From Candidatus Gastranaerophilales bacterium (GTDB taxonomy: Bacteria; Cyanobacteriota; Vampirovibrionia; Gastranaerophilales; Gastranaerophilaceae), in assembly GCA_944323665.1 (NCBI GenBank), contig CALUTN010000183.1, positions 66,619 to 130,618 on the forward strand: a stretch of 64,000 bases of DNA, read 5' to 3'. Position 1 is the first letter of the stretch. Every line of letters starts with the position of its first letter. The translations under genes were made by a program, and so were the position numbers. This document shows, one piece after another, positions 31,022 through 64,000 of this stretch. The notes beneath the pieces are model-generated. The model searched no databases, was not told where the DNA came from, and saw only the letters and a program-made list of their open reading frames with translations.

Positions 31022-31088
31022 TAAGACTATAGAATTTTATAGTTTTTAAAACAGGAATTAAAGGATAAAATTAAAAAATTAGAAGGAA

Positions 31089-32844: not shown

Positions 32845-32845
32845 T

Positions 32846-34918: not shown

Positions 34919-34920
34919 CT

Positions 34921-35603: not shown

Positions 35604-35624
35604 ATGACTATTATCTAGAATAAT

Positions 35625-35936: not shown

Positions 35937-35937
35937 T

Positions 35938-37794: not shown

Positions 37795-38251
37795 TGAGGA
37801 TATTAGAAGTTATAATATAGGAAATTCAAATTACAGTAAACATAAGATACAACCTTGGGATATTTGGCGCGAGTATAATCTAAATCCATGGGATGCTGAT
37901 ATAGTTAAACGTATTTTAAGAACTAAAGAAGAACCAGGGATGTCTAAAGAAGATGCAAGAATAATGGATTATGAAAAAATAATTCATATTTGTAAAGAGC
38001 GAATTAGGCAAATAGAAGAGAACAAATCTAAAATAACTGCAGTATCTGGAAATCTATATAGCACAACATATCCTCTAGAATCTTATACAACTTTTACATT
38101 AAGTCCAGAACAGTTAAAAAAGTATCAGGAGTTTCAAAGCACTAATACTGGTCTTTGCTCTGTAAAATTTACACCAACTGGAGTTGGCTTAGGAGTTGAA
38201 TTTATTTGTGGTGATAATAAACTAAACGTATCTGAATACGAAAAATGGTAA
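37784..38251 (+). CDS. hypothetical protein, 155 aa
   Basis: The last gene of the left block. It contains IIHICKERIRQIEENKSKI, a helix that may bind RNA or a partner, and an aromatic beta-rich end. The terminator follows 8 bases after its stop. No family recognised. Confidence 0.58.
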   Translation: MKNNEDIRSYNIGNSNYSKHKIQPWDIWREYNLNPWDADIVKRILRTKEEPGMSKEDARIMDYEKIIHICKERIRQIEENKSKITAVSGNLYSTTYPLESYTTFTLSPEQLKKYQEFQSTNTGLCSVKFTPTGVGLGVEFICGDNKLNVSEYEKW

Positions 38252-38258
38252 TAATAAA

Positions 38259-38305
38259 GGGGAAGTGGTTAGAACTTATATTCTAGCTGCTTCCCCTATT
38301 TTTTT
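38259..38305 (+). terminator. strong terminator between the convergent blocks
   Basis: GGGGAAGTGGTTAGAA (38259-38274) pairs with TTCTAGCTGCTTCCCC (38281-38296), a 16-bp stem with three G-U pairs and a 6-base loop, followed by a T-run on the + strand. It ends the left block. On the opposite strand, the same hairpin lies just beyond the stop of the last late gene (38304), so it may also serve the minus strand. Confidence 0.92.
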
Positions 38306-41300
38306 ATCCTTCACCAATACCATTTTGTGTATCTCTTATATACATTCTATATGTATCCTATAAAGATCTTGGTAAAGCTATTGATTTAGTAATTAATTCT
38401 CCCATAGTTGTATCTCCAAAAACAAATCCTCCTAAATCATTTATTGTTTTAACTCCCCATTTTACAGAAGCTGGACTTGTATTATTCATAACATAATCAA
38501 ATATAGGATAAGGACCTTTAAATTCTTCATAACTACTTGCACTTCCTTTATATAAAAGTTCTATAACTGCATTAGTTAAGAAATTTTTGCCGTCATCTTC
38601 TTTTTTATGTTTTTTATAGGCAGGATCAATAACTTGATTAAATAATGTATACAATAACAACCACATTAACATATCAGAAAATAATCTTTTCCAATTTCTC
38701 CACTACATTGGATTGTTATATATATTATTTTTTATACCTTCCCAACCTCTACCAAAATATAATTCAGAAAAAGTATCTTTTATAGTTTGCCATACTCCCT
38801 ATACTATTAAAGGTATATCTACCATATATGGTATTCCTGTATCTTCAGTTGTTATATTACCATTTTCGTCTATCCATAGTTTATTTCCGCTTTCGTCTTC
38901 TTTCTAAACTTTCTAAGTTTCATAAGAAGATACTCTTCTTTTTCCTAGATATACATCATAAATACCGTTCATCCAAGTAGAAAATACTCCAAACTAAGAA
39001 CCTATAGCTAAATTTTCATACATAGCTTTAGTACTTCTATTATATGAACCATATATGGTATCTCCTAAATTTTTAATTTCATCTATTTGATTCTAGGTAT
39101 ATCCGTCTGGTAAATCAGTAGAAAGACTAATAACTAAGTTCATTCCAGGATTTTCTTCATTAAATTTTAATAACTAACTGAGATATAAAGATTTCTATTT
39201 ATTATATTCTGTTATATTACTCTAATCATTTGATGCAAGAAGATTAAATCTATCATCCAATCTCCAGTTATATACTAATTTTCCATCTCTTATAGAGTAT
39301 GCTTTATAAGAACCATCATGTTTTAGTTTTCCCATAAATAAAACCATTCTATTTAAAAAGTCTGGTTTTCTAAGAGTGGCATATGCCCAGTTTCCTGCAT
39401 TAGTTATACCACCTCTATTAGTTTTGTAACCTTCTTGCTATTGTTCTATATTAATATTAGATATTAAGTATTTACTATTTAATTTATCTAATAAATCAAT
39501 AGTCATGGCTGAATGTACACCCTGTCTAAGTATAAACTAATAAGCCCACATAATGTCTTTTGCATTCATATCTGTTCTATACTTGGTTATAGTTCTTACA
39601 GTATTAGATAAAAAACCTCCAATAACATCACGCAAAGCTGCTACTGGACTAGCTGCAATATATGCAGTAGATACAGCTTTTCTTAATGGCTATATAGCAG
39701 AAATAATCTTTTTGGAACTCTCTGTCATTATACTTTTATTAAATACAGAAGTTTTTAAATAGTCATCAATATGTTCTATTACTTTAGAAAATTTCTAAGG
39801 ATCCCCATCTTCTCTTATTCCCATTATTTTAAGATGTAATAAAATCCCTTTAGCTCTAGTAAGCATTTTATTCATTTCCTATTCCTATAAATCTTTATAA
39901 GCATAGTCTATTACTAAATTTTGAAGATTAGTCTCAAAGTAATCTTTCTTATATCTTTCAAGTAATAGTTTTCTTCCCCTATTTTCTCTATTAGAACCTC
40001 TAGGTTCAGAAATTTTAAAGGGGTTATAGGCCTACATATTTTCTATGTCTGAATTTATTTGGCTCTCTTCATCTTCTGATAATATACCTTCATACATTTC
40101 TCTAAAGAATAGAGTAGGATTTTTACAATAATTATTAATTCTCCTTTTAAAATCATTAAAATATTTTCCAGGATTACTCCATCTAGTAGATGAAGACGCT
40201 TTTTCTAGAGGAACCCATAAACAATCTGGATTTTTTTCTACAAAAGATTTTAATGCTTTATCATCTTCTAATCTATAAGAAAAATTTCTATCTTTATAAC
40301 GAACTTTATTTATTGTATATAAAGCCTTTTTTAAAAATTTTCTATCATCATCATCTAAGTCATTTGTAGTATCATAGGGATTTTTAAAAAATAACTCATC
40401 ATTTATATTTTGATATAAATGTTTAAATACATTAGCCTAATCTCCTAATAAAGCATTTCTGGCTTTACTATATCCTTTTTTATTATAATATTCTAAACAT
40501 GCTAAATTAAAATCTGATATTTCAGGATCTAATTTATTAGATATATTATGTATAGCATCTTGCAAAAGTTTACTAATTATTCTAATGTGTGTATTAGATA
40601 TATTCTGAGGTCTAGCTAATAATCTTTCTATTTCTGATAAATCTTTTTCCTATATTCTAATTATTCCAGAGAGTCTATCTAATGTTATAGAAGCATTTAA
40701 TAATAATTTACAACAACTAGACACTAATGTATCTTTAGTAGGATCTACAAAATTAGATGATGTTTCAGCATGGGTAATAATACTATCTGGAGATAAGGAA
40801 ATTCCTTTATTAATTAAAATAGTATTCAATTTAGAAATTAATTCTTCCAATCTCTATATCTACACATCAGTTGTTTCTGCTGTAGATAATGAATCAATAG
40901 TAGTTCCATTTAATAAATGCTACAGTCCATCATCCTCAGATCCAGAAATAATTTCTTTTAAAGAATTAAAATCTGTACTTCCCAAATTGGGATTATCTTG
41001 CATTATATCCCAAAATTCATTTATTAAAAGCTCAACTGGAGATATATTTTTTACATTAGTAAAATTGTTCTAAATTTTTAAATTAGGTTCTTTATTATTT
41101 AAAATCTAAATAGCTTTTAAGAAATTTGGTAATATTAATTGTATAGGATAAGATTGACTCTAAATTCTATTTCCCAAACCTCCAATCACAGAAATATCAC
41201 CTAATTTAACATCTCCTTCTAACTAAGGTAATAGTTCATTTAATAAAAACATTGTTCTCATTGTTTCTATATTACCATAAGTTGATTTCATTAACTCTCT

Positions 41301-42956
41301 TCCTTGATTATCTAATGCTTGTGAATCATTTAAATGAAATCCTAATATATTAGTTCTTCCTTCAAATGAGTGGGTCTAGTCAAGATTTAAACCTGATAAT
41401 GTAACTACATTAATCTAATGTGTTAGAGTATTTTCAAATATAATTATATTACAATTATTTAAAGTTTCATTTTTTACTATTTTCCATAGATAATTATATT
41501 TATCTTCTCCATTAATTTTAACAATAGATTTTTCAAAGTATGGATAAAATAACTTATTTAAGTATTCATTATCAAATTTTGGAAATCCAAATCTTCTAAA
41601 TTCGTTAATCTAATTAACTATTCCTCTAGCACTTAAATTTCCAGAATCAATATTTAATAATTCATCCTAATTTTTTCTTATAATATCTACTACTTCTTTA
41701 TTTTTAGATTTTACTTCAGAACTCTATACTGAATACTGTTTTCCGTTAATTATTAAATTCCATCCAGAATTAGGTTGTTCTCCCTAAGTCCAATATTTCC
41801 AATTTTTATCAATATATTCTTCTATAGTAGAAGTAATACCTTCTGCTTTAATACTTTTTTTTGGAAATAATGCTCCTAGCTATATATTTACAGTATCTAT
41901 AGAAGAATCATCAATTTTTATTTCTTCTACATTAGATGCTATAAATTTCTAAGCTAGTTTCATCTACTCCTACATAATAAATGCTCCTTTATTATGACTA
42001 TAACACTCAGCTTTTTGAACTTTTATATCTTTAATATTTTGAAACTAATTATCATACTCTAATACAACAGGAATAATATTAAAACGAATATCTTTAGTAC
42101 TTATTCCATTATATTCTAATATTCTAGAAAGTAAAGCAAATTCATTTCTATATTTTTCCTTTTTAGCCCTATCCCAAAATGCAGGAGATTCATGAGAACT
42201 TTTAATATTAAATATTTCTATAGAGCCATTAGGTTTAACTACTATATAATCTATATGGGCAGTAATATTTTCATCTCTTCCTATTAATTTAGCAGATAAA
42301 TTAATATTTTTTATAATTCGGGGAGAGGAATCATCACCTACTTCTTTTGATTCTTTTCCATTACCTAAATACACTTCTTTAAAAACATCATTATATACTT
42401 TATTATGTATAACATCACTAAGATGTTCAAATGATGTTCCTTTAGTATTTTCTTCAGTCTAAGAATAAGAAGAATCAGAATTTTGTTTTAAAAGTATTTT
42501 ATGTAAATCTCTACCATCCTAAGCAATCTATTTCCAACTATTTTTTAATATAGATAAATGCTTCTAAATCTCATCTTTAGTTAAACCTTTCTGTTCATAT
42601 AATTCTTTCATTCTATCTAAATATTCCTCTACCTAGATAACTGGCATAATCTATCTTCCAACGGAATCTACATATAATCCAGAATCTATAAAAGACTAAG
42701 TTGTATATCCATCTGTATTAATTTCAGCGCAGCCATTAATAATGTCAACTCTATCAGAAAATTCTTTTTTAAATTTTCTTTTTCCCTATTCTTTTAATTC
42801 AGAAAGTTTATCTACTACTCTAGTTTGTTTATTATAATCTTTAGAATAAAGAATATCATAAGCAAGTTGAGGACTTCTCTTTAGTATTCTTACTAATTCT
42901 TCATAAGAATTTTTATACTATCTTTTTCCTATTAATGTGTAAGTACAATTTTTCAT
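38304..42956 (-). CDS. giant late protein with PD-(D/E)XK-like domain, 1550 aa (TAG = Gln)
   Basis: The frame ATG (42956) to TAA (38304) has no TAA/TGA seen inside and uses many TAG codons as sense. An N-terminal nuclease-like domain spans about residues 190-330: HIDYIVVKPNGS then IEIFNIKSSHE, where D236 and K252 fit the PD-(D/E)XK pattern but the middle acidic residue is Asn. The C-terminus has hydrophobic stretches such as LMWLLLYTLFNQVI. This resembles the large crAss-like virion proteins of the RNA polymerase region. It overlaps the upstream gene by ATGA. Confidence 0.82.
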
Positions 42957-45631
42957 TTACAATTTTCTAATATTATACCTTTTTCTATTCCCTATTCTAT
43001 AAGATTAGATATTACTCGATTTTTCTGCATCTAATCTATCTAAGAAGATATTAATGTATTTATTCCTGTCTTAAAATTAAGATCTGTATCAAAATCTAAT
43101 TTAATATCTTTTCTTATAGAATTTTTTATATTTAAAAACTAATCTCTAAATAAATCTATAGCTTCATTAGTTTTATCTTCATAATAAAAAAGATCTCCAT
43201 TTTCAACCTATCTAGCTAAATATCTAACTACACATTCTTCTATTTTATCTAAATAAGCTAAATTTTTATATAGAGTATTTACTCGGTTTCTAGTTATAGA
43301 CTATACTTTTTTATTATAAAATTCCAAAATATTTTTATAATTATTGCTTCCTTCTTTCATATCCTAAGCTTTTATCGCCCCTAATACTATATGAAAAGTT
43401 TCATGTATTAAATCTCCTACATTAGCATTATTCTAATTTATATAAAGATTATTATTATAGATAAAGGCTCTCACATTATCAGTTCCATTTGGAAATATCT
43501 AATTTCCATTATCATCTTTTAATTCCTATAACTAGTTATTATCAGTTATAATAATCTTAATAGGAGTATCTTTAAAGAAAGTATTTTCTAAAGACTCTTT
43601 TAAATTATATAATGTTGCAGTTAAACTTTTAGTTGGAGGATTTCCACTAATATCAGTTCCAGTAGAATTAATAATTATTCCTGAATCTGTTAAGGATTTT
43701 AAATATACAGTATAAGTACCATTATCGTTTTTATAACTTCTTTCTACTAAAAATTGTTTTTTAGGACTATTATTTATTCTATTTATTATTTCATTAATTT
43801 TAATAAAATCTGCTTCTTCTAAAGGTTTATTAGCAATATTATTTTGAGAATAACCATTTTCAGTCATTGCATATAAAAATATACCTATTTTTTCTGGCAA
43901 ATCTAATGAAGAAATATCTATCCCCTATTTTTTATAAAATTCCTATACCTCAGAAGGTTTTTTATTACTTAATAAATTATATTCCTAAGCGTATAATTTT
44001 GTTTTAGAGTTAATAGGATAATCAATAGAATCAATAGTCTATTCAGGATTTACTAAAAATCCTATAGTGGCGCTTCTTTTTCCTGTTGTATTATTGTCAA
44101 ATTTTTTTAAGTCTATTTTAGAAGCTTTTTCAATATTAGCAGATCTATTAAAGCCTTCTATAGCTAATTTTGCATCTTTTAAAGATGAAAATCTAGGAGG
44201 ATTAAATAAATTAGGACTTATTACACTAGTACTTATAATATATATATTATCTCCATTTTCTTTTAAATGGTTATATACATAATATCCTTTATATTCTCCA
44301 TTAATTACCCCATCTTCATTTACTGGAGTAAATATATTCATAGTATCTTGCCCAAAATTAAATTCTTCACTTAAAATTTTACCTTTTCTTTTTAATTTTA
44401 TTTTGTCATTATTTGTTAATTTTTTACCTAAGTAACTATAAATAATTGTATCTTTATCCTAATTTATAGTAATGTTGTAATTCTATCCATCTATTGTAAA
44501 ATTAAGATATCCATTAAAAAAGTTTTTAGCATCTTCTAAACTTTGTATATTATCCTCATATTTAGTAGATAATTCTAACTAACCTAATGCTTTTCTTTCT
44601 TGATTTTTTAACGTAATGACATTATTAAATAATTGTTTAATTTGTGACTAAGTTAAATCAATTCTCTAAGGAATAGTTCTTCCTACTGATTCAACATGAT
44701 AATTTGATAATATGATATCATCTTTAAAATATTCCTATAATAGAGATTCCATTTGTTCAGCATTTAAATTTATAAATTGTTGCTCACTTATTTTCTAGGA
44801 AAATTCCGGAATATATGTAGATAATGATTTGTATAATTCAGATTTACCAAAAGATTCTCTTTTCCAGTGAAGTCTTCTTAAATGTCTAGCCAAGTCAGAT
44901 TCTGAGTCTTCATTTATTACCTATTGTTTAGTTAACTCTCTACAAAAATCATTTAATATAGAACCAGAATCTATAACTTTATCTCCATCTTTAATTAATT
45001 TATTATAATCAGAAATATTATTAAGATAATCTAACACTAAGTATTTAATTGTAAATTTATCTTTGATCTAATTATCTACTTCTTTAGTTATCCTTTCTAA
45101 ATTTTCTTTATAATTATTTCTAATAATTTCTAATTTATTTTTATATTTCTCTGAAAGATACTAATCTAAAATTTCATCATCCTTTATTATCTATTCTACT
45201 AAATATTTTTTATATTCAGTTTCTGCAAAATTTTGAACATCAAATTTATTTCTAAACACATAGCTAACAACTCCATTTACCACTATTCTTCCTTTTAATT
45301 CTGAACCATTAGAATAAGCTTTATCTACTAAAGTAATTATATAAGGTTTATCTATATCTTTAATTAGTTCAGTTTCTTCAGGAAACATAGTTTTCAGATT
45401 TTCAAATGAACAGTTTCCTATAAGCTATTTACCTAAAAAATATTTCTAAGAGTTTTTCATTCTTGTAGATGAAGTCTACAAATCATTAAGTAACTATTTT
45501 ATTTTATGTTCTGGTAATGTCTAAAGATATTCAACAATATCTTGAAGAGAATCCAGCTCCTTTTCACTGGATTCTCTATCAATTTTAAAGTTGTTTTTTC
45601 CTCCTATTTCAAAAATTATATCGCAATTCAT
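42953..45631 (-). CDS. 892-aa late protein with a zincin motif (TAG = Gln)
   Basis: Starts MNCDIIFEIGGKNNFK at 45631 and ends in TGA at 42953 overlapping the next ATG. A zinc site is read as DLIHETFHIVLG (HExxH at about residues 743-747), with KIEECVVRYLA some 45 residues further as the probable third ligand. The N-terminal two thirds are helical repeats without recognised domains. A zincin in a virion protein could process other late polypeptides. TAG codons are frequent. Confidence 0.8.
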
Positions 45632-45635
45632 ATTA

Positions 45636-48600
45636 TTAACATAATTTATAAATAAGTAATCTATTCTATCTAATGTACTATGCTAAAGTTGCTATCTATT
45701 TTTCTATATTATTTACATCTTTTCTTTGTTCAAAAAATGCAGAATTTTCTTTTAATCTTCTATGTAATTCTGGGAACATAGCCAAAGAGTTCTAAGTATA
45801 GTTATATAAACGATCATTTATCTAGTCAGGAGTTAATCCTAAACTATCTAATTGTAATAACTATATTGGATTAGTTGTATATTTCCAAGAGTAATCAGAC
45901 CTATCGTAATATCTCCTATATACATCATAACCATGTAAGGGATTTAATACTTTTACATAAGGTTCTGTTCTATAATTTAAAGCATACTATGAATAAACTG
46001 TTGGAGCAATAGCAATTAAAAAGTCTCTCTTAGTAGGAAGAATATATTTGAAATCACTGCTATAATCAGAATTAGCCATAAACTAATAATAATCATATAA
46101 TACATCTCCTTTAACAACCTAGTCTCTAAATACTCCTGTCATATATTTTCCTCCTAGTTTAGTTCCATTTACAGCAAGATTATATAGCATTAATATATCA
46201 GCAATAGAGTAATTATCATTGAATTTTTCATTAGCTAATTCAGATACTCCTAATAGATATTTATTATATGTCTATTTATTAGGTAAGCTCTAGTCAACAT
46301 CAAATAAATTCAAAGCAGTTCTTAATGCACTTTTACCTCTATTAGAACTCTATACCAATTCTTTAACTAAGTAGTTATCTGGATAATTAGTTTTTAACCA
46401 TTCGTAGAAATCATTCTCTACAAAGTTCTTCAAAGAATCTATACCATTTAAAGAATTAAGATATAATTCGTCTGATTTAACTAACTAATAATCAGAATCA
46501 AATACTTTTGTATTTGGAACTTTAGATATATCTATTGGTTCTGATTTAGATAAGAAATATGAAGTAACTAATATTTTATCAGTATACTAAACAATATTCT
46601 TGTAATCTTTATCAGTTAATGCATTATAAGATAACTCTCCTAATGAAATTAACTAGTCTAATATTTTAGATTTATTAGCAAATAAATGTCTCTACTATAA
46701 AGTATAATTTAATAAATCTAAACTAACCTTATAATGAGGAATTCTATTCATAATATCTAGAATATTCCAACTAGATTTTATAAGATTATAGTAGTCTGCT
46801 GCTAATTCTCTATATGATACTAAATCTCCCTATCTTGTATTATATTGTATAGGAGAATTTTGAGATACTTTTATCATATCATTATTTAAATATTTGTATA
46901 TATCAAAGTTTCCATACAAGTCTGCATTAATAGCATCTATTAATATATTTTTTATTTCTAATTCGTTTAATTCTGGATTATTGCCTTTTATATTACTAAA
47001 TATTTTATGAACTTGCTAGAATAATTTATCTCTTCCAGGATTTCCATCATAGGATCTTATAGCATTAATCATATCTTCTTTAGAAGTATTAGTAGTCTAA
47101 TAATCTTCTTCTGTATCTTGTAAGTCTACAAATGTTATCTTATTAATATCTACTAATTTCTTAATTCCCATTTTATATTCTCTTCCAGATATTGTAGAAT
47201 TCATTCGTTTAACACGCTTAATAAGTTCTATATCTGTCTGAGGAATACCTTGATTTAATTTAAGCCATACAGATGCTAGATTAGAAGTCTCATTAGCTTC
47301 ATCAGTTATTCTAGTAAACTCATTTAAATCTAATTTAAAATCTAATAGAGAATAATTACTATTTGGATGCTACTTATTATATGCTTCTATCTATGTATTT
47401 ACATCATTAATAATCTAATCAATGTACTTAAATACATAATTAGTATTCATATTATCAGTTTTAGGAAGAGTAAATCTAGCTAATTTTTTCATATATTCAG
47501 GGCTAGAATTAGAAATAGGTTGAGTTTTAGCTTGAATATACTTTTTAACAAAATCTTTTAAAGATTTAGATTCTACTTCAGAATATATAGAACCTAACTA
47601 AGAAATTATCCAACTATATTCATTATTAACTTTTCTTGGAACTCTACCTTCTGCTAACATTTCCATTATCATCTCTGCCTCATCCTCCATAGCTGTTATT
47701 TCAGCTTCCATTGCTTCTATTTTTTCCTCAGCAGATAAATTTTCAGAAGGTTTTACTATTAATTTAGATAAATCAATATCTCCATTTAATAATTTAATAG
47801 CTTTATTTACAGAACTAAATTGATTCTAGTATAAGTCATTTCTACTATACTTATCTATTAACTCAACAACAGGACTTGTCATAAATGAAACAATATCATT
47901 TAATTTGAATCCCATTATTATCATATGCAGATAATATTTAGCAAGATTAGTACCAGCATTAATCTTAGCAAGAATCAATTCTTTAGCATTGTCTGTTGCA
48001 GCAGATAGTAACTGAGAAATTAACTAGTCTACATATTTATCACTATAATCAATAGTTCCATCATAATTCTAATAGAACTATTCTTTTAATTTATTAGCTA
48101 ACTACTAGTCTGCATTCCACAAATCTGGAATATGTTTAATATTTATATTCTCAAAATTCCAAGAAGCTCTTCCCTAGATTCTACTATAAGAATGATTCAT
48201 CTTTAGATAGAATAAATCTTTCTAATTCCCCTTTCTAAGAATATTATGATAATAGTAAGTAAGATTAAACCAGTCTTTTTCACCATTAGCAGCAATACCA
48301 ATTACATTCTTACCAACTAAGTTTTGATTCTACATAATATATTTAGTAAGAGGATTAATCATATTTAACTATTTAGTTTTAGCACCTTTAGGAGATTTAT
48401 CTGCCTCTACCTATAAATCTTTCATTGTAATAGGGGAATATGCCTAGTCTCTGTTTCTAATATTATGAACCACATTTCTAATGTTAGCACTAGCAACATT
48501 CTTATAAGCTTGTTCTCTCTGATTGTAAGTTACTTTATAATTTTCATGATACTGAATCTATTTTAATATTCTTTCTTTTTCTTCTGCATTAGAATCAGTT

Positions 48601-48881
48601 AAATAATTATATCTTCCTTTATTATTATCTATCTTATAAATAAGATTAGCAAGATTTTTTATTCTAGAAGCACTATTTCTTGAATTAATTACCTAATTTA
48701 ATTCATTTTCTATAGAATGTTCTGGATTCTCAGAAACTAATAATTTTAAACCTCTTGGTACAGGCAAGAATTTACTAGCTTCTATAGTCTTGTAAGATGA
48801 ATAATTAAATAATGGACTCCAACCTATATAAATTCCATCATCATTAAAGGACTGTCCCATAACATATGCTTTATCAATATC
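45636..48881 (-). CDS. virion-type RNA polymerase, exon 2 (TAG = Gln)
   Basis: Begins with DIDKAYVMGQSFNDDG, completing the DxDxD metal motif with the end of exon 1. About 1081 residues follow, mostly helical, including the coiled coil AEEKIEAMEAEITAMEDE. The end is a double TAA at 45636. Exon 2 keeps many TAG codons, no TAA/TGA inside. Expected role: single-chain RNA polymerase, as found in crAss-like phage virions, used for early transcription after injection. Confidence 0.82.
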
Positions 48882-49965
48882 CGTTTACTCTATTTCTTTC
48901 AAAATAGAACCGACTATATCATCATTCACAATAAGTGAACGTCTTGCGCTTCGGGCGATAATTCAAGAAATTCTTGTTTAGTAAAATCATTTCTTATTTT
49001 ATATTTTAAAGATGGAACTTGTAATATATACGGCCTTATTATAGATATAAAATTTCTACAATCTTCTTCTGAAGAAGTAACTATAGAATAAGTTTCTTTT
49101 CCTTCATGAAAAAGTCTAAATTTTATATTCCATATCTCTGAGAAATATTCTATTATTTCTTCAGCAGTATCTTGATTCACACAAGTTGCTATTCTTATAG
49201 AATGTTGTATAGATGAGCGCTGCTTAGATGTGTTAACGTTTATACAGCCATCATCCATATACCAAATAGCAATTCCTAATGGATTTAACCAATTTAGTAG
49301 TTTTCTAGTAATAGTTTTTTTGGGAATATATACACTTCTGCGAAGAGCTTTTATTGTAGGATTTATAGAAAATTGAGTATATAATACTTTTCTACCTTTG
49401 TTATATCCACAAGTACAAATATATTCCTTTATTCCATTTAACTTAAACCCTAGTTTTATAGCAAGATTATGTTTCCATGTAAGAAACTCACGTTGCTCTT
49501 CTGAGTGGCTAAGCTTAAATACATAATTACTAGATATTGTTCCGTCTCCTAATAATAGAGCTATCAGTAAGCTCTTTTGTTCTTTGTTTAATTTTTTAAC
49601 AATTTTTCTTTTCATAATTTTATTCAATTAGTTATTTAACAAACTGAATAAAAGCCCTACTCTCTTTCGAGATAGTCTGTGAACTTTTATCCTTATAAAC
49701 AAGTATATTGATAACTTTATCAATTAGCTAGTCTAATATACTATAAGTTTATCTAGGATCATTAGCTGCGGATTGTCCAATCCAATTCTTTTTTACTATA
49801 CCGATAATAGTTAATTATCGCCATTAAGATATTACTATCTTAACTTAGTAGAATTGGCTCTGAGGAGTTCCCCGTCAATTCACAAGATTTAACGACTACA
49901 ATATTAATTTACTAAGTAGTATTACTTAGAAGGGTTAATTGTCACACTAGAACGGTCTAATGTCA
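48882..49965 (-). mobile_element. group I intron in the RNA polymerase gene
   Basis: A 1084-nt intron. Exon 1 ends in T (49966, TAT codon), the intron ends in G (48882). Core: on the minus strand CACAGACTATC (about 49675) and GATATAGTCGG (about 48911-48920) form P7, the same GACTA/TAGTC pair as in the thyX and DNA polymerase introns. The endonuclease lies between these strands. It is placed precisely within the catalytic metal site. Intron limits are inferred from protein continuity. Confidence 0.83.
48926..49627 (-). CDS. LAGLIDADG homing endonuclease in the RNA polymerase intron
   Basis: 233 aa with motifs LLIALLLGDGTISS and GIAIWYMDDGCIN. It closely resembles the thyX-intron endonuclease (SEEQREFLTWKHNLA against IEQREYLEWKVNLI). 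No TAG codon interrupts it, and its glutamines are written CAA/CAG, unlike the surrounding late gene. It therefore looks like a later arrival, readable under both codes. Confidence 0.93.
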   Translation of the reverse strand: MNKIMKRKIVKKLNKEQKSLLIALLLGDGTISSNYVFKLSHSEEQREFLTWKHNLAIKLGFKLNGIKEYICTCGYNKGRKVLYTQFSINPTIKALRRSVYIPKKTITRKLLNWLNPLGIAIWYMDDGCINVNTSKQRSSIQHSIRIATCVNQDTAEEIIEYFSEIWNIKFRLFHEGKETYSIVTSSEEDCRNFISIIRPYILQVPSLKYKIRNDFTKQEFLELSPEAQDVHLL

Positions 49966-52900
49966 ATAGTCTGATCCCTACAGATATGTCTGTATATAAC
50001 TTACGTAAGCAGTGTTAGAAGTATCCTAAGTCCAACCTACACAAACCATAGGCATGAAAGATTGTAATGACTGAGCGGGAATACGAGAAGATATAAAATG
50101 TAGAGAATTTAGGAATGAAGAATATTGTTGTTTATAGTGCTATAAAGATTCATAATATTCCTATTTAATATCTTTATAATCATCTTCAAAACTATCTTGT
50201 AAGAGAGCATTTCTTAATTCTATTATATGTTGCTAGAATTTAGGTAACTATTTAATTTCCTAATTAGTCATTAATACTCTTTTACTAGTATTCTAATCAT
50301 ATTTAGTGTCGTTTCCTAAAGAAACTAAACTACTAGATATTACTCTTCTCAAATCTCTATTTAAATCAATACTTGTATTTACTTGTATATCTAGATATTT
50401 ATCCTATTTATATATATCTTCCAAGATTTTAGATATCTAATGATAAGCATCTGAATTTAAAACATCCTAATCGTTTGATTTTTTATCCAAAGCTTCTCTA
50501 ATTTCCTATACTGGAGATACTTTATATAAAGTATAAGTAATTAACTAGTTTTCTCCATTAACTAAATTAGATTTAGTATATTTAAATCTCTTTATATAAT
50601 CAACTCTTTTTAGAACTTTCTAAACATTTCCATTTTCATCATAAATTAATCTATATTTAGACTTATCAACTTCTTGTTTACTTTCATCTAAGACTTTTCC
50701 ATCCACAGGTTCCCATGAAGAAGGAATATATTTTCCTATTTTAATTCCATCTTTATGAGTATATATTTCATTATCGTCATTTATATATTCCTACGAATAA
50801 TCAAATGGATCTTCATAAACATTTAAGGTTTCATTTATATTACTAAAAGAAATTAATGTATGCTAACCATTATTCTTAACAAAAGCTAAGTTATAGAAAC
50901 CAGTAGGTATTTTAGGAATTGTTGTCTATTTTCTAAAGAATTCTTCTCCCTAATCCATAATATCAGCTAGAGAATTATCACCAGTCTAGAAAATATCCTT
51001 ATACATATTACCTAAAACAATTTCAGCTTCTGTATTTTCTAAACTATCTGGAATAATATCTATTAGCTATCCATTTAATTCAAATTTTCCCTAGTCTAAT
51101 AAATCAAGTACTTCTTGAATTTGAGCCTATTTAGGTCTCTGAGATTTAGGTAAATTCCAAGAACCTCTAATAATAGGATGATCATATATATTCATAAATT
51201 TCTATACTCCATCTGCTGGATCTATATACTACCATCTAATAAAGGAAGGTTTTAAATTATTGGGCTTTATAATATTCAATCTATACTTGTTTGAAGATAT
51301 ATTAGAAATTTTTCTATATTCTGATACCTAAGTAGTATTTAAAACTCCAAACTTATCAAAATATTGTACAGTATATGGAGATGATGCTACTTCTAAATTT
51401 ACTCCAGAACGCCTATCCTAGTTTTCTATAATACTTTTATAACCAGATACACTTCCTTTTGTTAAACCACCTATTTTAGTATTTACCTATTCTAATGTAG
51501 TAGGAGATAATCTCAAAATAGAATTATTTGGTAATACCTATAAAGCAGCATTAAATAATCTAATTTTCTAATCTTCAGTAGAACCTTCCCACTAAGTTCT
51601 TCTTTGAGTTACATTGTCTTTTCCTCCTGTTTTGAAGTGTATATTCCACTTATCAGAATCTGTTTCTTTTTCTATAACAAAAGATTGGTTTTTATCTTCT
51701 TTTAAACTAATAGTATATTTTTTACCATCATTTTTAGAAGTTATAGTAACATTATAATTATCTTCTATATCATATATTCCATTTTTAAATTTATAGTAAT
51801 CATCCATTTTATCTAATACATGTGTTACTACTTCCCCATTTTCTTTTATTATATCAACTATATCAGTTGGCATAAACCAAGACTTGTCCCTAATAGGTTC
51901 ATTAGCTTGCTTACTAGATAAGAAAAGATCTACTAATTGACTATTATACTAAGTAGTATCTTGAGTGGTAATAGATAAATAAGGTAGTTCTTCTGGATTT
52001 ATTTTACCTTGAGTTTCCTATAATAATGTAGGTAAATCAAAGTTATAAATTTTTCTGCCCCTATCTCCATACTTATTTGGGTCTATGTTATTAGCTATAC
52101 ACCATTGTTCCAGTTTATTTATTAATTTCCCTCTAAAATCATTCCTAGCTCTTTTCAAAACATCCTAAAACATATACTTTCTATAAGTTCTAGTCTTTGG
52201 ATCATATAACTAGAAATACTAAATTACATTATATCCAGGAGCCATAACATAACCAGAACCGGGATGTTTACGCTTAATAGATTTAGCATTAATTACAGAA
52301 GTAATATTAGTAATAAACTAAGTATAAATACTAGGATCACTAAAAGGAATTTTTAATTCAGAAGATGCACTATCTCTATTAGTTTTAAATTCCTATCTAA
52401 TTTCCTATTTTATTCTTTCTGTTAAGTCCATATCATTATTACTCTTAGATTGGACAATTAACTTGCCTACAATCTTATATAATTTATATTTAGCTTTACT
52501 TGGATCTTCTGCATAGTCTTTAAAAAATCTTGATATATTAGTTAATTCCTATTCAGAAGCCTAAAATGCCGATTCTCCAAGACCATAATAAATCTCATTT
52601 ATTGATTTAAAGTCTTTTCCATATGCAGCACAAGCAGCAACTACCTGAGAGAACTCGGTTAATTCAGAATTTACTACATCATGATCAGCATTTAACTAAA
52701 TTCCCAAACCTTGTATATTTAATTTAAACGTATTTAAAGGACTATCATCTGTCCATACATTTGAATCATTGACATTCTTAGCACCGTTTTTAACAGCTGA
52801 ACTATTAAATACATAAGCAATAAACTTATCTTTTAGTGGCTAGACAATATCCTTAACAGAAGTAACTTTTGCAGTAGTTTTGTATCCTACATTAATAACA

Positions 52901-55900
52901 AAGTTAGCTAATACTTGATTACTAAATTCAGAGATATTACCTTTAGCATCAGTACAATTTATTCCTCCTAATGATACAAATAATTCATATAAACTATCTA
53001 TATCATGATAGCCTTCTCCTCCTACAGTACTATGTTCAGAATTTACGTCACTAAAATAGTGATATACTTTATTAGTTCCTTTTCCTAAAATAGATTCTAT
53101 AGTAAAATAACCTTTATCATCTCTTCCGAAATCAGTTATTTCTACAATATTTCCAAATTGATTTTTATAAAATAATTTCTAATCCTATAATATTGCCTCT
53201 TTAAACCATCTAGATACTTCTTCCTAATCATATAATGTCTACTCAAATTGATTTATATTTTTAGTTAGATCTATAGTTCCATTCCACCTAATATTATGCA
53301 TTTTCTTAAACATATTATACTATGCAGAATTTGATTTTAAAGATTGAAGCATCATAGCATTAGTCTAACCAAAAGATGCGAACTTAGCCAAGAAAGAGGT
53401 TAAATCATCTGTTTGGTCATCCCAGATAGGCTTTCTGTTAGTTCCTACTCTCTAATCACCTAATGAGTTGTTTTCAAAAATAACTTGAATTGAAGACATA
53501 GTAGAACTACCATCCTATGAGTCTATAGAATCAGACTCTCTTAAATTATTTACTGGAGCTGGCATATCTTTTACTACAGCTACATTTACTTGATTAGCTA
53601 CACCATTTATAAGACCAGTCAGAGGATGCTATAAAGTGGCAGGAATAATTACATTACGTTTAAATTGAGTACCCTCTGCAGTATTAATTATCTCAATAAT
53701 AGTTTTATCATATATATCCTACATATTAGGATTGCCATCTAAATCATTTATAGCTTTATAACTAGAAAATTCATTAATAAAACTATCTAAAGACTAAAAT
53801 GGTATATTATTATCTGTAAGAAGTACTTCAAGTTTTTTACGTGCAATATTTATTTGTACGTCATTATTTTCTTTTTCTGTTTCTTCTAATACTGTAGAAA
53901 CTGCTTTTCCTATTCTATTAAATAAAGTATTTTTTGCTTTATCTGGATGATTAATTTCTGAGCCTGATAAACTTAGTCTTAAGTTATTGCTAAATAAACC
54001 TTCTATATAGAAGAATTTCTACAAGAAAGGATTCATTTTATTGTTTTTACTTAAAATAAGTTCTCCAGTATCCTAGTTAATCCATTCTTTGGCAAATTTT
54101 TCTCTATCTATATTTTTAAGAATAGAAGAATCTGATAAAATTCTAGTAATAAGATTTAGATTTTTATCATTTAAGCTTCCATTAATCCATGAGTTCAAAT
54201 CGTTCTTTGAATCAAATAATTTGAAACTAACTCCATATTCTTCTAAATTTTCAATAAATAATTTCTACTATTCAAATATATATTTTTTTAATCTAGTTGG
54301 ATCATTATATAATTTAGCATAGAAATCAACAATTTCATTCAAATCACAGAATTTCTTTCTGTCTCTAAAATCTTTATCTGCTTCTAATTCTATCTTATCA
54401 ACATTATTTTGATTATAAGTATATACTAAACTTAATAACTATTTAGAATTTCTATTTCTCAAAAACTTTCTAACATTATCAAGTCTATTAGAATCAAATA
54501 TATCATTTGGTAACTTAAAGTTAATTCCTGCTTCTGTATCCAAAAATTGCATTAATTTCTCAAACTTAGATACTATATTTACCTAAATTTGATTATGTAC
54601 TGAAAAGAAAGTGTTTCTATATAAGTCTATAAATTCCTACTCTCTATCATTCATTAAATCCATTACTCCTTCACTAAACATCGAAAGATTAGATAGATAA
54701 TTTAAAAAGTTTGTTTTATCAGAATATACAGTAGGAGAAAAACTTATTCTTTTATTTTTTAAATAAGAAGTATAAAACTTGTCTAATATAGCATGCTAAA
54801 ATAATTCAGAGGAAGACATATCTTTTACAGCTTTTACATCTCCTATAGGAGTAGTTATTTCACTATCTATAACAGGATCTACATCTATAGAATTAGGGTT
54901 CTATACAAACAAAAGAGAATTATATACACCTCCAAGTTTCTATTGTTTATATAGTCTTCTATTTAATTCAGAACCTAAACGAGATATGCTGTAATTAGAT
55001 ACACTAGAACCTGCTTTATTTAAAGAAGTTGATCTAGAAGCTTTTCCACTAACTATAGAATTGCATCTAACTAAATCACTAAGTGCTTTATCCTTTGTAG
55101 TTACTGCTTTAAAATATACTTTATTTCCTTGTATATCAAATATACTGGAAGTAGTCTAATTAGATTCTCTATTAAAGAGTCCTGTATATTTAGAACTTTC
55201 TAATAAATAATGTTTTAAATCCTGATTTCCAGCTAATCTTACTTGATTATCTATATCAGCAACTCTTAAAGATAATTTTAAGAAGTGATTTAAATAATTA
55301 TTAGAAAATAATCCATTTTTAGGATCTGATGTATACTATTTTTTATAAGCATATAAAGCATCTAATCCAACTTCTGATAATAGATTAGTATCCAAGTAAT
55401 AATCAAACATTTCAAGGAGATTACTAAATAATGTTTCATATTCATTTAATAATTTCTTATTTGTTAATACTTTATTTTTAAAATCCATTAAATCTATCTA
55501 TGATAATATATCGAGAATAGAAGTATCTTTTCCATCAATATTTATTTTAGTATCTTCTAACTATAGATTATTTAAAGAAGAAAACAATCCTTCTAAATTA
55601 GAAGATCCTTGTTCATATTTGAAACCAAATGTATATAAATCATTTCCTTTACCTTTTAATTCTACTTTAGATATAAAGCTTCCAGCAGAATCTGGAATAG
55701 ATTTATATCTATATTTATCTAGTCTATTAGAAACTAATTTATTTTTTTGTCTAACTTTACTCTAAAAAGATATTCTTTCTACTAAGTCAAATAAATCAGA
55801 ATCCCAATTAAATTTTTGTTTAATAGTAAAAGAAGATTTAGAGGGCTGTAGATTACAATCAATATAATTATTATTTACATTTCTATATAATACAGCACAT

Positions 55901-57630
55901 AAATCAGATACAGTTTCTAAAAAATTTTTACTATACTTTTCAGAACTATTTACTCTATTTAATTCAGCATATATATTAGAACCTGGATTGTCTCTATTTA
56001 AAACTGCATTATAAAATGAATATAATATATTTTTATGTTGCTCATTTAATAACTCAGAACTAGATAAAAAATCTATTATTCTTTCTCTAGAACCTTTTAA
56101 GTAATCAGGCTTAAATAATAACTCTAAAATGTTTATAGTATTATCTAATACATTTACATTTTGAGTATTAATATAATCTTTTAGGGTTTCTACAACAGCT
56201 TTATTATCTTCTAGATTAAAGTTTAGTTTGTTGTTTAACGTATCTGCAATTAAAGATTGCCATGCTTCCATTAAAGACGTCATTGTTAATGGCTAAGGAA
56301 TTAACTAATGCTATTCATTATATTTATATATAAATATGGTTTCAATCATATCTTTTACATTAGAACTAGTATGAAGTTCACTTCCCTCATTTCCCTAAGT
56401 TTCCCATCCAGCACTTTGATGTTTTTTAGATTTTCTAATAATATACTTTTGGGCATCCTATCTCTAAGGCTCTATATTATTTAAAAATCCTTTTTCTATT
56501 CCTATATTATCTCCTAATTTCTGAGAAAGAATATCATCAAAACAAGATAGTTGAACATAATCATCAACATAATTAAGAAAATCATTTTTAGGATTTTCTA
56601 TCTAATTTATTAAGTCCAAAACTTCTTTTTTATATGAAGCACCCCTTTCTATCTCTTTTAATAATTTATCTTTTATTTCTAAATAATAATTTGAGAATCT
56701 ATTAGCAAGAAATAACTGAGTTTTTGCTTCATTATTTATATAGTTATTGCTATATTTATTGTTAAACCAAGTTTTTAAGGAAGTATTTTTTTGAATAAAA
56801 TCTATTAATTGTCTATATAGAAATTCTTGTTGAAGTTTATTTTTCTATAATACTTTATTTTCTAGCTAAGAATTAAATTTAGCATTTCTATTCTCATCTG
56901 ATACTACTAATTTTTTAAATTTGTCTAATACATAATAATACTAACTAGAATTGAGCATCCCGTTGGTATACATTGTAGAGATAGATTGTAAAATAGAATC
57001 ATTTGGAAACTATTGTTTTAAATAACCTACAATTCTCTCAAATTTTCCTTCTTTATATTTTATTATCCTCTCATTTACCTCTTTCGGAGATAATTCATAT
57101 TTAGTTTTTAGATAATCATTATATATCAATTTCTACTTTAATTCTCTACTAAAATCATTAGTTACTTCTTGTATTAAACCTGTATTAATTGGACCATATA
57201 TCTCTAATAAAGCATCTTCTACTTTTTGTAGCTTAATGGCTTCCTTTTCTTCATCTGTCTACTGTTCTTTTTGCTATTCGGTAACAGTAGTATGACCTTC
57301 CTCGACATTATTCATGTCGAAGAAGGTTGATAATATAATATTTTTAAATTTTAATGCTTTTTCAGGAAGATTTTCTAAAGAAGTATTAACTAAGCCACAG
57401 ATAATGTTATTAACATCATCTATAAAAATTTTAGAAGTTTCATCTAAATCCTCTGAACCTGTCAACAATATACGTTTATCCTCCCCAGATTTAGATTTAT
57501 ACTTATATTCTAAAGTTTTAATAATTCTATCTTCTATTCCTGGTCTATTTATCTAATTAAATAATAATTTTAAATCAGTAGCTAAACGCTAATAATTGTC
57601 TTTACTGTAATTAATATTACAAGCTGTCAT
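49966..57630 (-). CDS. virion-type RNA polymerase, exon 1 (2555 codons, TAG = Gln)
   Basis: ATG at 57630 (MTACNINYSKDN) starts a 3636-aa product. Exon 1 ends IQTYLQGSDY before the intron, and its last residues SRIPAQSLQSFMPMVCVGWT and TAYVSYIQTYLQ give the strand-rich approach to the active site. Further upstream, AKSIKRKHPGSGYVMAPG and QYNMFKKMHNIRWNG suggest the first double-psi barrel. No TAA or TGA was seen; standard-code fragments never exceed 173 aa. Confidence 0.8.
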
Positions 57631-57642
57631 AAATTTTACTTA

Positions 57643-60600
57643 TTAAAAACATGAAGTATCTATATATGTTAAATAGTCTAATAATTTATATTTTTCATCG
57701 GTATCTTCTAGTTCACTTACTTTATCTACTATATCATTTCTTAGATTTTCTACTAACTATAGATAATTTTCAATACTTGAAGAATTAGATAATTGGTTTA
57801 CCTACTCATCTTCTGGTAACATTTCTTCTAACTAGTTTAAGAAATCTTGATGTGACATTATATCTTCTCCAATAGGATCTTTAACTATTGAATTAAATGA
57901 TTGTTTTGTTAAATCCTCGTAAGAATTAGAATTATCTGGAGTTAAAGTTATATACATATCTTCTTCATCTAAAGATAATTCTCCAGTATTTTCATTCTAG
58001 TTAGTATAAAGTATTTTACCATTTTCAAATTTAACATCTTTTAAAGAGTCCTTTCCTTCAAGATTTAAATTAATTAAATCTAATATATTATCAGTCCAAG
58101 TTCCATATTTGAAGAAATTTTTTATCTTTTTGTTATTTTGAACTGAAATAAATTTAGAATAATTTTCCTAACTATCTTCTAATCCATTATTTAATATATA
58201 ATTAGAAAAAGCTATCTTCTCTTTCTAATCTATTATTTGAGAAGAGTATCCAGCCTACTATATAATAGAATTATTTGTCTACTAAGTCTAATTATCAATA
58301 GTTATTTTATTTCCCCCATTTATTAGTTTAGTTAAATTAATAGCCATTCCACCAGGAATAACATCAACATCAACATCAAAGTATATAGGATTAGTTCCAC
58401 ATTTTAAAAAAGTATAATCCTGACCATCATTTCCTCTAATATTTATCTGTTTATAATCCTAACTTTCTTCAAGATCTGGGTCAACAAATATACCATATTT
58501 AAATGGAGCATCTTCTGTATAAGCATGTGACTCTTCTAAGCTTTTAGTTGTTCCATGAAAAATAAGATTAAACATATTAAATAATGTATTATCATTACCT
58601 TTTCTTATTAATAATCCTTCTTTAAATAAAGAAGAAATATCAAAATCAAATTTTTCTTGTCTATCTTTTGTATCAATAGTAGATATACTTATTAAACCAC
58701 TAGCTTTGGAATGAGTCTAGTAAATTCTGGATTTAGTAGCTATAGTGGATATTGCTTTTGGAAAGAAACTAAAAATAGAGTTAGCTCCAATAGTAACAGA
58801 TGATATTATCTTTCCATTATCATCAGTTTCTCCTAAAATAATATTTTTATTTGTAGTATGAATAAGTCCAGATAAATTTCTTTTCTATTCACTTTTTCCA
58901 ATATATTCATTAGTTTTAAAATCTGTTCCATCAGATTTAACTAATTTAGTGTGCATTGGTTTAAAATCAAAACCTACATATTTAAATTCTTTAGGAGATT
59001 CATTTGCAGTTAATTGTGATAATATAGTAGATAATAATGTATAATATTTTCTAGCATATTCTTCTTCTAAAGCAATCATATTTGCTTGGTTTTTACCATA
59101 GATAGAAGAATTACTTACATCAAATTGTCTAATAAATCCACCTATTTCCTTATTAGTAAAATCAATTCCTAGTCTAAATGTAGGTATATCTTTGCAATAT
59201 TCCTAGTTAAACTTTATTAAGTTTTTTAAGTCATTAATAGTTACTTTATAAGTATTTAAAAGACTTTTCGCATCTTCAGTATCTAGTTTAGATTCCCATT
59301 TTTTTCCAAATTTATTAAACAGTTCTGCCTCTACTTTAGTTATATCTAATACTTTATTTTCGTTATAATTATTTTCACTTTTCCAATTATCTAACTATAT
59401 TAAGAAATTTTCTAATCCGGCTCTAAAGTTCCACATAGCTGTAAACATTCTTATTCCGAGCGTATCCATTCTCCATGGTTTTTTAGATTTTTCACCATCT
59501 CCATTTAAAAGTTTCTATATTCTATGTGTAATTAATTCTGTAAAACTTAGACCATGATTATTTAATAATACCATTCTAACTTCTGGAGTATGAGCGTTAG
59601 GATTCTTTTTCTATTCTATATATCTTTCTGGAAGTTCTTCCGGAGATAAATTAGTATTAGAAGATACAAAAACTACAGCTTTTCCAAAAATAGATTCTGG
59701 TATAATACCTTTTAGAACATCTGATCTGTTTCCTACAATATATACCGGAGATACTATTTTACGCTTATCAGTATCTATAAAGTTTTTATAATCTTCAATA
59801 TAATTTCCATCCTTATCAACTATATTATTTTCTACTGTAGCTATACTTAAAGTTCCTCCAAGCCTTCTAGGAATTGTTCTTTTAACTAATCTAGTAGTTC
59901 TATGAGATTCATACATATCTTCTGATAAGTCAATAGTATAACCATCTGGATGATCTTTTACTATTTTATTTATAAATTCCTCATATTGTTTAATAGAAGT
60001 AGATAAATTGTCTCTGAAATTTTCAGCTTTGATTTTATCAGAAATTTTTCCTTCAGCTATTTTTCTATTTATTTTATCTTTAATAGCTTGCTATACCTAT
60101 GGATTTTTTAAATTATTAAAATCTGAAAGCCAACATATATCAAATATAGCAGAGAATGGAGAATCCTATAATGTTTTACTTAATCCATCTAATCTACATA
60201 TAATAGATATTATATACTTTTCTCCATTAACATCTATATATCTAGGTTTACCTAAATCAGTGCCAACTCCAAAATTGTCGTAGTCTGTAGCTTTTCTAAT
60301 TTCAAACTATATTTTTCTATTTTTCCAAGCCTAATCAAATCCTATTAATGAAGTTAAAGCTGGGTCCTTTAAATCTCCTCCAAATATAATAGAACTTTGT
60401 ATTCTTGATAATATATCTTGATATTTCTATTTATCAGAAAGTTTAGTAATAGGCTCCTCTCCATTATAAATTGCATTTAAATTTCTTCTTATAGAAGTCT
60501 TTTCTCCTGGTAACCATGCAGAATATTTTCTAGTAGAGCCATCTGGATTAGTAAATGTTTCCTACAATCCAGTAATAGGAACTACTGTATTTGCTTCTAT

Positions 60601-63600
60601 AAATAAATCAGATAAGTTAGATATCTCTATATCATTCTACTTTTCCTAATAAGAGGGATCACTAAAATTATTATATGATTGCTACTTATCATCTTCTAAC
60701 TATCTCTATATTTTTTCTGGAGTATTTTCTGGATTTAATTCTGGAGAGTTATCAACTGTTGGAGAAATAACTAATTCTCCTTCCTATTCTTTGACTTCTG
60801 GTTCTGGAGTAACTTCTGGTTTTTCATTCTGTGTTGTTTCAGATAGATTTAATTTAGATAAAGCTTTCATATAAGAATCTCTAAATGTATTAATCTATCC
60901 AGAAATATTAAATCCTATAGACTTCATTTCATCTACAGTATTTTCTCCCACAAGTTTAGTTAAATTATTATCTAAGAATATAGAAGCTATTTTTCCTCTA
61001 GACATTAAGGTGTAAAATTTTCTTAAAAATGGAATAGATTTTTTAGCTCCAGTATATCCATCTATAGTATCGGGTAATTCAAATTTATCAATAAATACAT
61101 AATCAAATTCCTGTCCCTACATGAACTTTTTTCCAGGAATTAACTCAGACGTTAAAGCATCACTTAAATTAGTGAAACCTGCTGATTTAAGAATTTGATA
61201 AGCTTTAGAATTTTCATCACCAATAAATCCTATATTAGCATCTTTAGGAATCTTCTATATTATTTCATTTATATTTCCACTAATTAAATCTCCGTTTATT
61301 TCTTCTTTATTATAAACTCTGAGATTTAAATTATGAATTAAACCAGGTAACTATTTTTCAAAAATATCCCATTGCTAGGCATCTCCAGTTTCTATAATAT
61401 AATCTATTGTGTCTAAAATATTAGAAATCTTATTATTGTTATTCTATTTTTGTATATTACTAGATCTTAAAGATTCCTACAATTTAGAAGTCCTAGTACA
61501 AAACAAATTAGAAGGTTTTAAATTACCTATTTTATTAACTTCTCCATAACCTGACTAATTAGAATCACTTGCTAAAAATAATGTTCCTCCAACTTTATCA
61601 GCATAGGCTTCTAACATAGATATTTGAAAAGTATTTAAATGTGCTGCTTCATCTACAAATATTAATGGAGCAGTTATATCTGGATTAAATTTAATTTTAT
61701 TTATTTTTAGATCTATTTTAACTTTATCAAAACCAGTAGAAACATGTCTACTTATTGTAAAGTAGTCAGTATCAATACTTTCTTTGTCATTATTGGAGTA
61801 ATTGATTTTTTGTTCTGCTTTTTTAAATTCTTCATTTATTTTATTCCATTCAGGAAATAGCTTATTAAATATATTGTTATCCCCTTCTATAGTATATGAG
61901 ATATTTTCATTTAATGAGTTCTATAATTTAATGGCTTGTGAGGTTGTAGGTCCTATTATTAAAGATTCCTAATCATAATATCTCTACCTTATAGATTTAA
62001 AACATACTTCTGTTTTTCCAGCTCCTGCAACACCGTTCATATAAAAAGTATTAGGAGAAACAGTAACTTTTGGATCAATTAATTTGATAAGATTTTTAAA
62101 TCCTTCTTTATAAGTTTTAGTATGTACAGCTTCTCCAAGTCTAGATATATTTTGCTATATAGTAAGAGGGGCTATATTTTCATTATCCTTAATATAATTA
62201 ATTAAAGATTTATAATAATTAGAGGGATTATCAGATAGTATACTTAGTATATATAAGGCCTAATCATATTTTGTAAATTCTTTTAAATTTTCATTTAATT
62301 TACTAGTCTTCTATAATTCTATATCAGAGTAATTTCCTAAATAAGATTTCCAAAATTCTGAATATTCAAAAAATTGTTTAGCAGATAATTTAGAATCCAA
62401 GAGAATTTTCTAAAAATTATTGTATAATTTCTACTCTGCCTAAAATATCTAATTTAACTAATTTTCTTCATCATCTTTATTAAAAGGAGGAAGCTAATCT
62501 AATCCATTAGATAAATCATATTCTTTATCTCCTATAGTAAATTTAAAAGAGAGTCCTTTTATAATATTATATCTTAATTCATTAGATATTTCAGCGGTAT
62601 TAGTAAATCTTCTAAGTTTATTCATACCATTATTTAATGATATAGCTTCCCATATCTATATTTCGGTATTAAGATTATTTATTTCGCCCTATAGTAATTG
62701 AGCATAATCCTAATCTATTTCAGGAAGAGGTTGCCATTCTCTAGTTAAAACATCTTTATGATTATTTGCAAATTCATTTATCTATCTATTCTAGCCGAAA
62801 AAATGTTTTCCATTCGGATCTACAGACGCTGCATAAATGTATGCAGATAATAACTATAAAGACTTTTTAGCATTATTTAATTGTTTAGCCTAAGAATCAT
62901 TTAATTCAAATGATGCTTGTGTATCGGCAGATATATAATCTTTATAAACCTAATTTAAGATATAATTCAAATTAACTAAATCTTCTTTACTTGTAGATAT
63001 TTCTTTATTTATAGACGAAAGAATATTTTCTAATGGACTATGAGAATTTACTTTAAGTTTATTATAAAAATCATAAATAGGATTCTTCTATATTCTATTA
63101 ACTAAATTATTAGAGTATTTCTATAAAGAATCTAACTGCAACTTCATAGTATCTCCAGCTAATCCTTTAGGATCGCCTTCTAATAATATTCTAAATTTAG
63201 CATCTTTTCCAAAGCTTATTGGGGTATTCTATAATATCTATACTAAAGTTTCTGGTAAAGTAGATAATTTAGAACTAATAAATTGATATACTTCAGAATC
63301 TGGATTCTATAATTCAGTAATCAAATCATTTATGGATAAATCATCTCCTAAACTATTATCTCCTTTTAATCCAAAAGCTTTAGAAGACTTTTTACTTAAC
63401 ATATTAAGAATATCTTTTATTGTTCTATAATCCTATTTTTTAAATTCTATAGGAATCTACTAAAGAACCTATTTATCTAATTCGTATATAGTTCTTTCAT
63501 CAGCATCTTCATCAAAAGCCTTTTCTCTAGAAGTAAATGCAGACTAAATATTAGAAATAATTTCCTATTTATTTTCTAAATTGGAATTATTTATTTCTTC

Positions 63601-63999
63601 AATTATTTTGTTTATATTTCTTTCTCTAATTATAGGTTCTATAATAATATTTATAGAAGGAACCATATTATTAATAGAACTAATAATTTTATTAGATTCT
63701 TCTTTTACTTTAGTATAATAAGAGTCCTATAACTATTTTTGTATATCATCTATATTAGATAAGTCATCTTTTAAAGACATAAATATACTCTAATAAGAAG
63801 AAACATCTAGCATACTTCCAGAAACTAAAAATGGATATAACATTTCATTTTTTATAATATCCTTAATTCTAAGACCTATATTCTAAATTAATGTTCTATT
63901 AGTTGAACTATCAATAGAATAATTTATAGGTCTTAATATATCATCATATTTCTATATATACTGTTGAAGAAGTTGATTATTTAAATCAAATATTTTTTG
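57643..63999 (-). CDS. giant late protein with superfamily 1 helicase domain (5' partial, at least 2118 aa; TAG = Gln)
   Basis: The open frame extends past the window edge. A complete SF1 helicase core lies at about 60950-62100: YMNGVAGAGKTEVC (Walker A), LIIGPTTSQAIKL (motif Ia), LIFVDEAAHLNTFQ (Walker B, D-E-A-A), LFLASDSNQSG (motif III), QGQEFDYVFID (motif V) and FYTLMSRGKIASIF (motif VI). N-terminal residues are long helical repeats. The order resembles Pif1/RecD/UvrD-type helicases. The gene ends in TAA-TAA, 12 bases before the RNA polymerase ATG. Confidence 0.82.
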
Positions 64000-64000
64000 T

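Follow-up and report, generated by a model that had tools for sequence, protein, structure and literature searches.

The question raised by this locus is which genes of one phage read TAG as an amino acid, and what sets them apart from the genes in which TAG is a stop. The window, meaning the whole stretch of DNA analysed (64,000 nt), comprises bases 66619–130618 of contig C183, which is 140,120 bp long and lies within a 1.74-Mb bin; its source is a gut phage of the crAss type with two genetic codes in a single genome. The phenomenon is not new, being the code-15 system already known from crAss-like phages: late-gene recoding of TAG to Gln has been described in those of the Zeta and Delta groups (Yutin et al. 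2021, PMC7886860; review PMC10136315). As judged by comparison of genomes, the split between recoded and standard-code reading follows genes rather than strand.

Phage and contig context

The TerL of C183 is related to that of Crassvirales: tblastn against Suoliviridae TerL gave 25–29% identity over 70–82%, with E values down to 2e-41, and there is a match to phrog_6681 (E 1.8e-62). A PD-(D/E)XK nuclease in the structural block, a trait of Crassvirales, is present at contig 16839–17753 (PF12705 above the cut-off). No zeta reference genome was recognised among the database matches; the size, introns and tRNAs of the relatives fit the zeta group. A 117-kb relative, MT835470.1, is standard-code along its whole length and carries no tRNA.

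The recoded region runs beyond the window to contig position 139699 and restarts at 609. The two recoded arms probably meet in an unassembled part, since relatives measure 167–187 kb and a search of the bin for the capsid gene of relative G001 gave no match. The bin organism was not trusted as the host, because the GC content of the phage is 27.8% against 36% in sampled bin contigs and one phage relative was placed in a Rickettsiales bin.

The portal gene (contig 8646–11982) is interrupted by an HNH-type ORF (9679–10632) containing two TAG codons, likely marking a second late-block intron. Late-block reverse transcriptase genes, perhaps from diversity-generating retroelements, occur in G001 (138420–139694) and in another relative, G002 (27327–28454). 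A RAGATH-14 RNA and a Pistol ribozyme lie near the tRNA region of C183 (contig 23689–23867 and 25325–25397).

Recoded frames and the code boundary

The features of the window are as follows.

161..38251, plus strand: standard-code (early/middle) block with TAG only as a rare stop; ORF stops TAA 36, TGA 10, TAG 4
38258..38297, plus strand: terminator-like hairpin with a 17-pair stem and a T run, at the code boundary where the convergent blocks meet
38304..42956, minus strand: recoded gene of 1550 aa with 46 in-frame TAG, no family; homologs in 16 relatives
42953..45631, minus strand: recoded gene of 892 aa with 31 in-frame TAG (code-15 frame)
45636..48881, minus strand: exon 2 of the 3636-codon gene, putative RNA polymerase, beginning DIDKAYVMG, 38 TAG (by intronless relatives)
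48882..49965, minus strand: putative group I intron parting GSDY/DIDK, ends set from intronless relatives
48926..49627, minus strand: intron ORF (code 11) of 233 aa, LAGLIDADG endonuclease, 0 TAG/9 Gln codons
49966..57630, minus strand: exon 1 of the 3636-codon gene, ending YLQGSDY, 84 TAG (by intronless relatives)
57643..64000, minus strand: recoded gene of 3091 aa in the contig, 75 TAG inside the window, with a weak AAA/RecD-like ATPase stretch; continues beyond the window

A sequence-only reading of the window had reported that the longest standard-code stretch of the minus strand outside the intron is 173 aa, and that four ORFs of 892–3636 codons free of TAA and TGA appear once TAG is sense. 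Translation bears out both statements. Under code 11 the minus strand of 38304–64000 offers at most 173 aa apart from the 233-aa intron ORF; under code 15 it yields frames of 1550, 892, 1074 and 2555 aa and one that leaves the window. The 1074- and 2555-aa pieces are the two exons of one 3636-codon gene, and the block contains four genes (1550 aa; 892 aa; the spliced gene; the 3091-aa gene extending beyond the window). These coding frames hold 274 in-frame TAG (272 when the last frame is started at its first ATG) but neither TAA nor TGA internally; the ATG-started ORFs have 272 TAG against 150 CAA and CAG. The other two frames of each stretch contain 54–227 TAA and 7–124 TGA each, so the open code-15 frames are not due to chance.

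No credible match to the giant proteins came from searches of PDB sequences. Scans of viral contigs with single proteins (one late structural protein; the 1550-aa protein) returned no relatives, likely because most of the chosen peptides bear Gln, a residue that relatives may encode as TAG; alignment queries, unlike the single-protein ones, did find relatives.

The left block has 50 ORFs of at least 100 aa, only four of them ended by TAG, in agreement with the earlier description of TAG as a rare stop there. The standard-code block extends over roughly 31–105 kb of the contig; over the early block of the contig (33–104.9 kb), plus-strand genes cover 93%, with 95 TAA, 33 TGA and 6 TAG stops. 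The code partition is sharp, falling at 38.25–38.30 kb of the window, and recurs in relatives. Two terminator-like sites were found, against a mean of 0.2 in shuffled sequence. Homologs of the 1550-aa gene mark the same boundary in 12 other recoded stretches, some of which are near copies of one another, with 16–56 TAG in the homolog and 0–1 in the opposite-strand genes beyond. Relative G003 has 8 TAG in the homolog and 9 in ORFs beyond the boundary.

All TAG-ended early genes of C183 have TAA or TGA within six codons. Such backup stops were dropped as a candidate feature, as the pooled counts of C183, G001 and G002 were not significant (p 0.16, 0.23). At window 12881–15443, 17547–20453 and 27707–30436, early genes present in one piece in G001 are broken up in C183, with ORFs between the parts; introns are therefore likely in the standard-code block too.

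The amino acid at TAG

TAG in the late frames stands for Gln, a reading supported by alignments. TAG codons were masked as X and the genes of C183 aligned to those of the standard-code MT835470.1, in which Q occupies 60 of the 256 TAG sites aligned. By log-likelihood ratio Q scores 71.6 and E 7.2, with the rest negative. Q is also the best residue against G003, G001 and G002. The TerL alignment has TAG or Q at column 451 in almost every one of its 18 rows, and TAG and CAA/CAG swap freely between relatives at equal sites. The sequence-only reading had assigned Gln because TAG sits where neighbours have CAA or CAG, as in TYL-TAG-GSDY; the masked alignments agree, and MT835470 has WLQGSDY at that site. 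The alignments to relatives, which could have placed other residues at TAG and so spoken against the assignment, favour Gln.

Another meaning, such as Glu, Lys or Tyr, is very improbable: many TAG sites do align to E, D or K, but CAA/CAG sites scatter likewise, and the lead of Gln over Glu is 64 log units with MT835470 as reference and 71 with G003. The breaking-up of the ORFs under code 11 would also be expected of degenerate or pseudogene sequence, a view refuted by some 9000 codons free of internal TAA and TGA, by homology along the whole length of the recoded frames in relatives and by the alignment of TAG sites to Gln. Nor is it at all likely that TAG means Gln in the host's own code and that the phage just follows. 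No evidence in favour of a host code was found, and the early block, which is first read by the host, has TAG only as a stop; the bin also encodes both RF1 and RF2, although the bin may not be that of the host.

Suppressor tRNA and translation factors

A CTA-anticodon tRNA, suggested by the earlier reading as something to look for elsewhere in the genome, was found on the same contig; C183 has one (contig 21537–21611, minus strand). The 5′ strand of its acceptor is UGGGGUA, as in E. coli tRNA-Gln; positions 72 (G) and 73 (A) differ from the latter. With this Gln-like acceptor strand, the tRNA is a candidate Gln acceptor. One CTA tRNA apiece is present in G001, G002 and G003 and none in MT835470. 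In C183, G001 and G002 it is the sole late-strand tRNA, and the early strand carries the remaining 11, 21 and 11; in G003 the CTA tRNA and all other tRNAs share one strand. It lies on the TerL strand in 12 of the 13 relatives whose fetched stretch shows one, a biased sample that includes G001 and G002 again and whose stretches reach only about 10 kb. In seven loci (L095, L096, L098, L110, L117, L126 and L129) the CTA tRNAs are 88–90 nt long and differ from ordinary tRNA-Gln in their long variable arm.

Besides the two release factors, distinguished by their PAT and SPF motifs, the bin encodes GluRS and GatB; GlnRS gave no match in it. As the bin is possibly not that of the host, these factors and enzymes may not be the host's.

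The interrupted putative RNA polymerase gene

The junction of the 3636-codon gene is unbroken in G003, L166, L170, L172 and L173, where the DYDID motif is uninterrupted. The intron of C183 splits this conserved (DxDxD) motif of the putative RNA polymerase; such disruption has already been described in zeta phages (PMC10136315). Assignment to group I is based on a weak match to Rfam Intron_gpI, below the curated cut-off (35.8 bits against a gathering score of 50, E 3.9e-07), together with the LAGLIDADG ORF and the intronless relatives. The predicted fold of the putative polymerase core is poor (mean pLDDT 57.7) and had no meaningful match; a PDB sequence match was likewise lacking.

Among six recoded phages, the intron ORF has 1 TAG against 46 CAA/CAG, and the aligned exons 324 against 360; some stretches are doubled in the exon counts by two overlapping queries, so that the p value gives just a rough indication. 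The intron ORF is 70% identical to that of MT835470, compared with 29–33% for the flanking exons (protein), and therefore moves between phages of different code; the DNA of the intron region is 73.6% identical (window 48856–49891, MT835470.1 41937–42983). Recent arrival is a possible further reason for the absence of TAG from this ORF. The polymerase introns of two phages that are 99.4–99.6% identical, L177 and L178, differ by about 650 bases, and only one has the endonuclease ORF.

Distribution of TAG among genes

According to the sequence-only reading, recoding is confined to the late genes of the minus strand. This holds as a tendency of late genes. As a rule for the strand it fails, given that the early strand has recoded genes and that the intron ORF and a late-strand island avoid TAG. 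Outside the window, at contig 17877–19834, three clear genes of the early strand are recoded and hold 21 TAG against 13 CAA/CAG; one is endonuclease VII-like and one protease-like. The island is likewise outside the window:

contig C183 15767–17753, late strand: TAG-poor four-gene island (PD-(D/E)XK nuclease, two small ORFs, GroES-like gene), upstream of TerL

The GroES-like assignment is a weak profile match. The island has 1 TAG against 15 CAA/CAG in C183, and this one TAG sits in the GroES-like gene, three codons ahead of its stop; in G001 and G002 the four genes have no TAG against 19 and 20 CAA/CAG. A TerL alignment used as query against viral contigs returned 80 loci. In the 37 recoded loci showing both genes, the nuclease and GroES-like genes have 4 TAG against 708 CAA/CAG, and TerL and portal 940 against 1825; the contrast has p < 0.05 singly in 36 of the 37, although these loci are related, some nearly identical, and the tests are not independent. 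The TAG-poor island is kept in recoded relatives (loci L042–L048 and L091–L165). On the late strand of C183, only the nuclease, the GroES-like gene and the intron ORF are significantly short of TAG. Capsid genes of relatives are also TAG-poor, with 1/10 in the major capsid gene of G001 and 0 and 1 of 12 in two Suoliviridae.

A quick TerL tree (68 rows) has at least five switches between the recoded and the standard state; the branches are long and the details unsafe. Code-state changes inside the zeta group have been reported (Yutin et al. 2021, PMC7886860).

Timing, drift and expression level

The best explanation combines two codes, a CTA tRNA charged with Gln, a gene-wise partition and the timing of suppression; taken whole, it is considered highly probable. 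Early and middle genes would be read by the standard code, and late genes would read TAG as Gln by means of the phage CTA tRNA, which host enzymes would charge with Gln. The suppressor tRNA would build up in mid-infection and outcompete RF1, and TAG would consequently be allowed only in genes first needed afterwards. The island genes and the intron endonuclease may shun TAG because they are made before suppression or independently of it. TAG would thus mark genes translated only once the suppressor acts; the lateness of a gene is judged here from its function and the literature. G003, with 9 TAG beyond the boundary and its CTA tRNA on a common strand with the others, counts against this explanation, as do G72 and A73 of the CTA tRNA, in which it departs from E. 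coli tRNA-Gln. A stronger form, in which TAG content is a gene-by-gene clock, with the island and the intron endonuclease translated before suppression and for that reason kept nearly TAG-free across wide divergence, late genes recoded even on the early strand and the late-strand tRNA coupling the switch to late transcription, is tentative and somewhat less likely to hold than to fail.

TAG may instead have no regulatory part: one change away from CAG, it could drift in wherever it is harmless once the suppressor is present late, and the partition would then show where TAG is tolerated rather than any control of timing by TAG. The free exchange of TAG with CAA/CAG at equal sites and the repeated changes of state on the TerL tree favour drift, and nothing decisive stands against it, as the assumption about timing is common to it and the best explanation, the sole difference being regulation by TAG. 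Drift is given a chance a little short of even. Avoidance of TAG in the island and capsid genes could also follow expression level, strong translation shunning a slow codon contested by RF1. The low TAG content of capsid genes makes this a rival to timing as an explanation of the island, but the nuclease is unlikely to be among the most abundant proteins and early genes of low expression are free of TAG too; it is thought unlikely.

Relation to known systems and implications

The phage of C183 shares with the zeta and delta crAss-like phages mostly-late recoding, a CTA suppressor among many tRNAs and a large genome, as well as group I introns, a LAGLIDADG intron in the transcription block, code changes over short distances and, with zeta genomes, a broken DxDxD (PMC7886860; PMC10136315); no difference in kind was found. 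Peters et al. 2022 (PMC9523058) detected Gln at TAG by mass spectrometry, with none in early proteins. Their code-15 crAss-like phages likewise use the standard code in part, read TAG as Gln in structural genes and carry a suppressor tRNA; peptide proof exists for them, while the phage of C183 is known from its sequence. The gut phages of Kienbeck et al. 2024 (PMC10879173), whose suppressor tRNAs are accompanied by theta ribozymes, also have a CTA tRNA and code 15; in contrast, no HDV-like family was reported near the CTA tRNA of C183, the 3′ flank of which is A/T-rich. Mention of the TAG-poor nuclease/GroES-like island or of the strand of the suppressor tRNA was not found in PMC9523058, PMC10136315 or the accessible part of PMC7886860. 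An earlier mention of TAG-free late-block genes in Borges 2022 is possible.

Recoding has reportedly been proposed to regulate lytic genes (Borges 2022, Nat Microbiol), and the phage of C183 fits this proposal. The strand rule is to be replaced by a gene rule, the cause of which we infer to be timing. A single code table fits neither the whole genome nor a whole strand. The nuclease, the GroES-like protein and the intron endonuclease are predicted to be made before or apart from suppression, and the TAG content of individual genes may predict the timing of their translation in uncultured phages.
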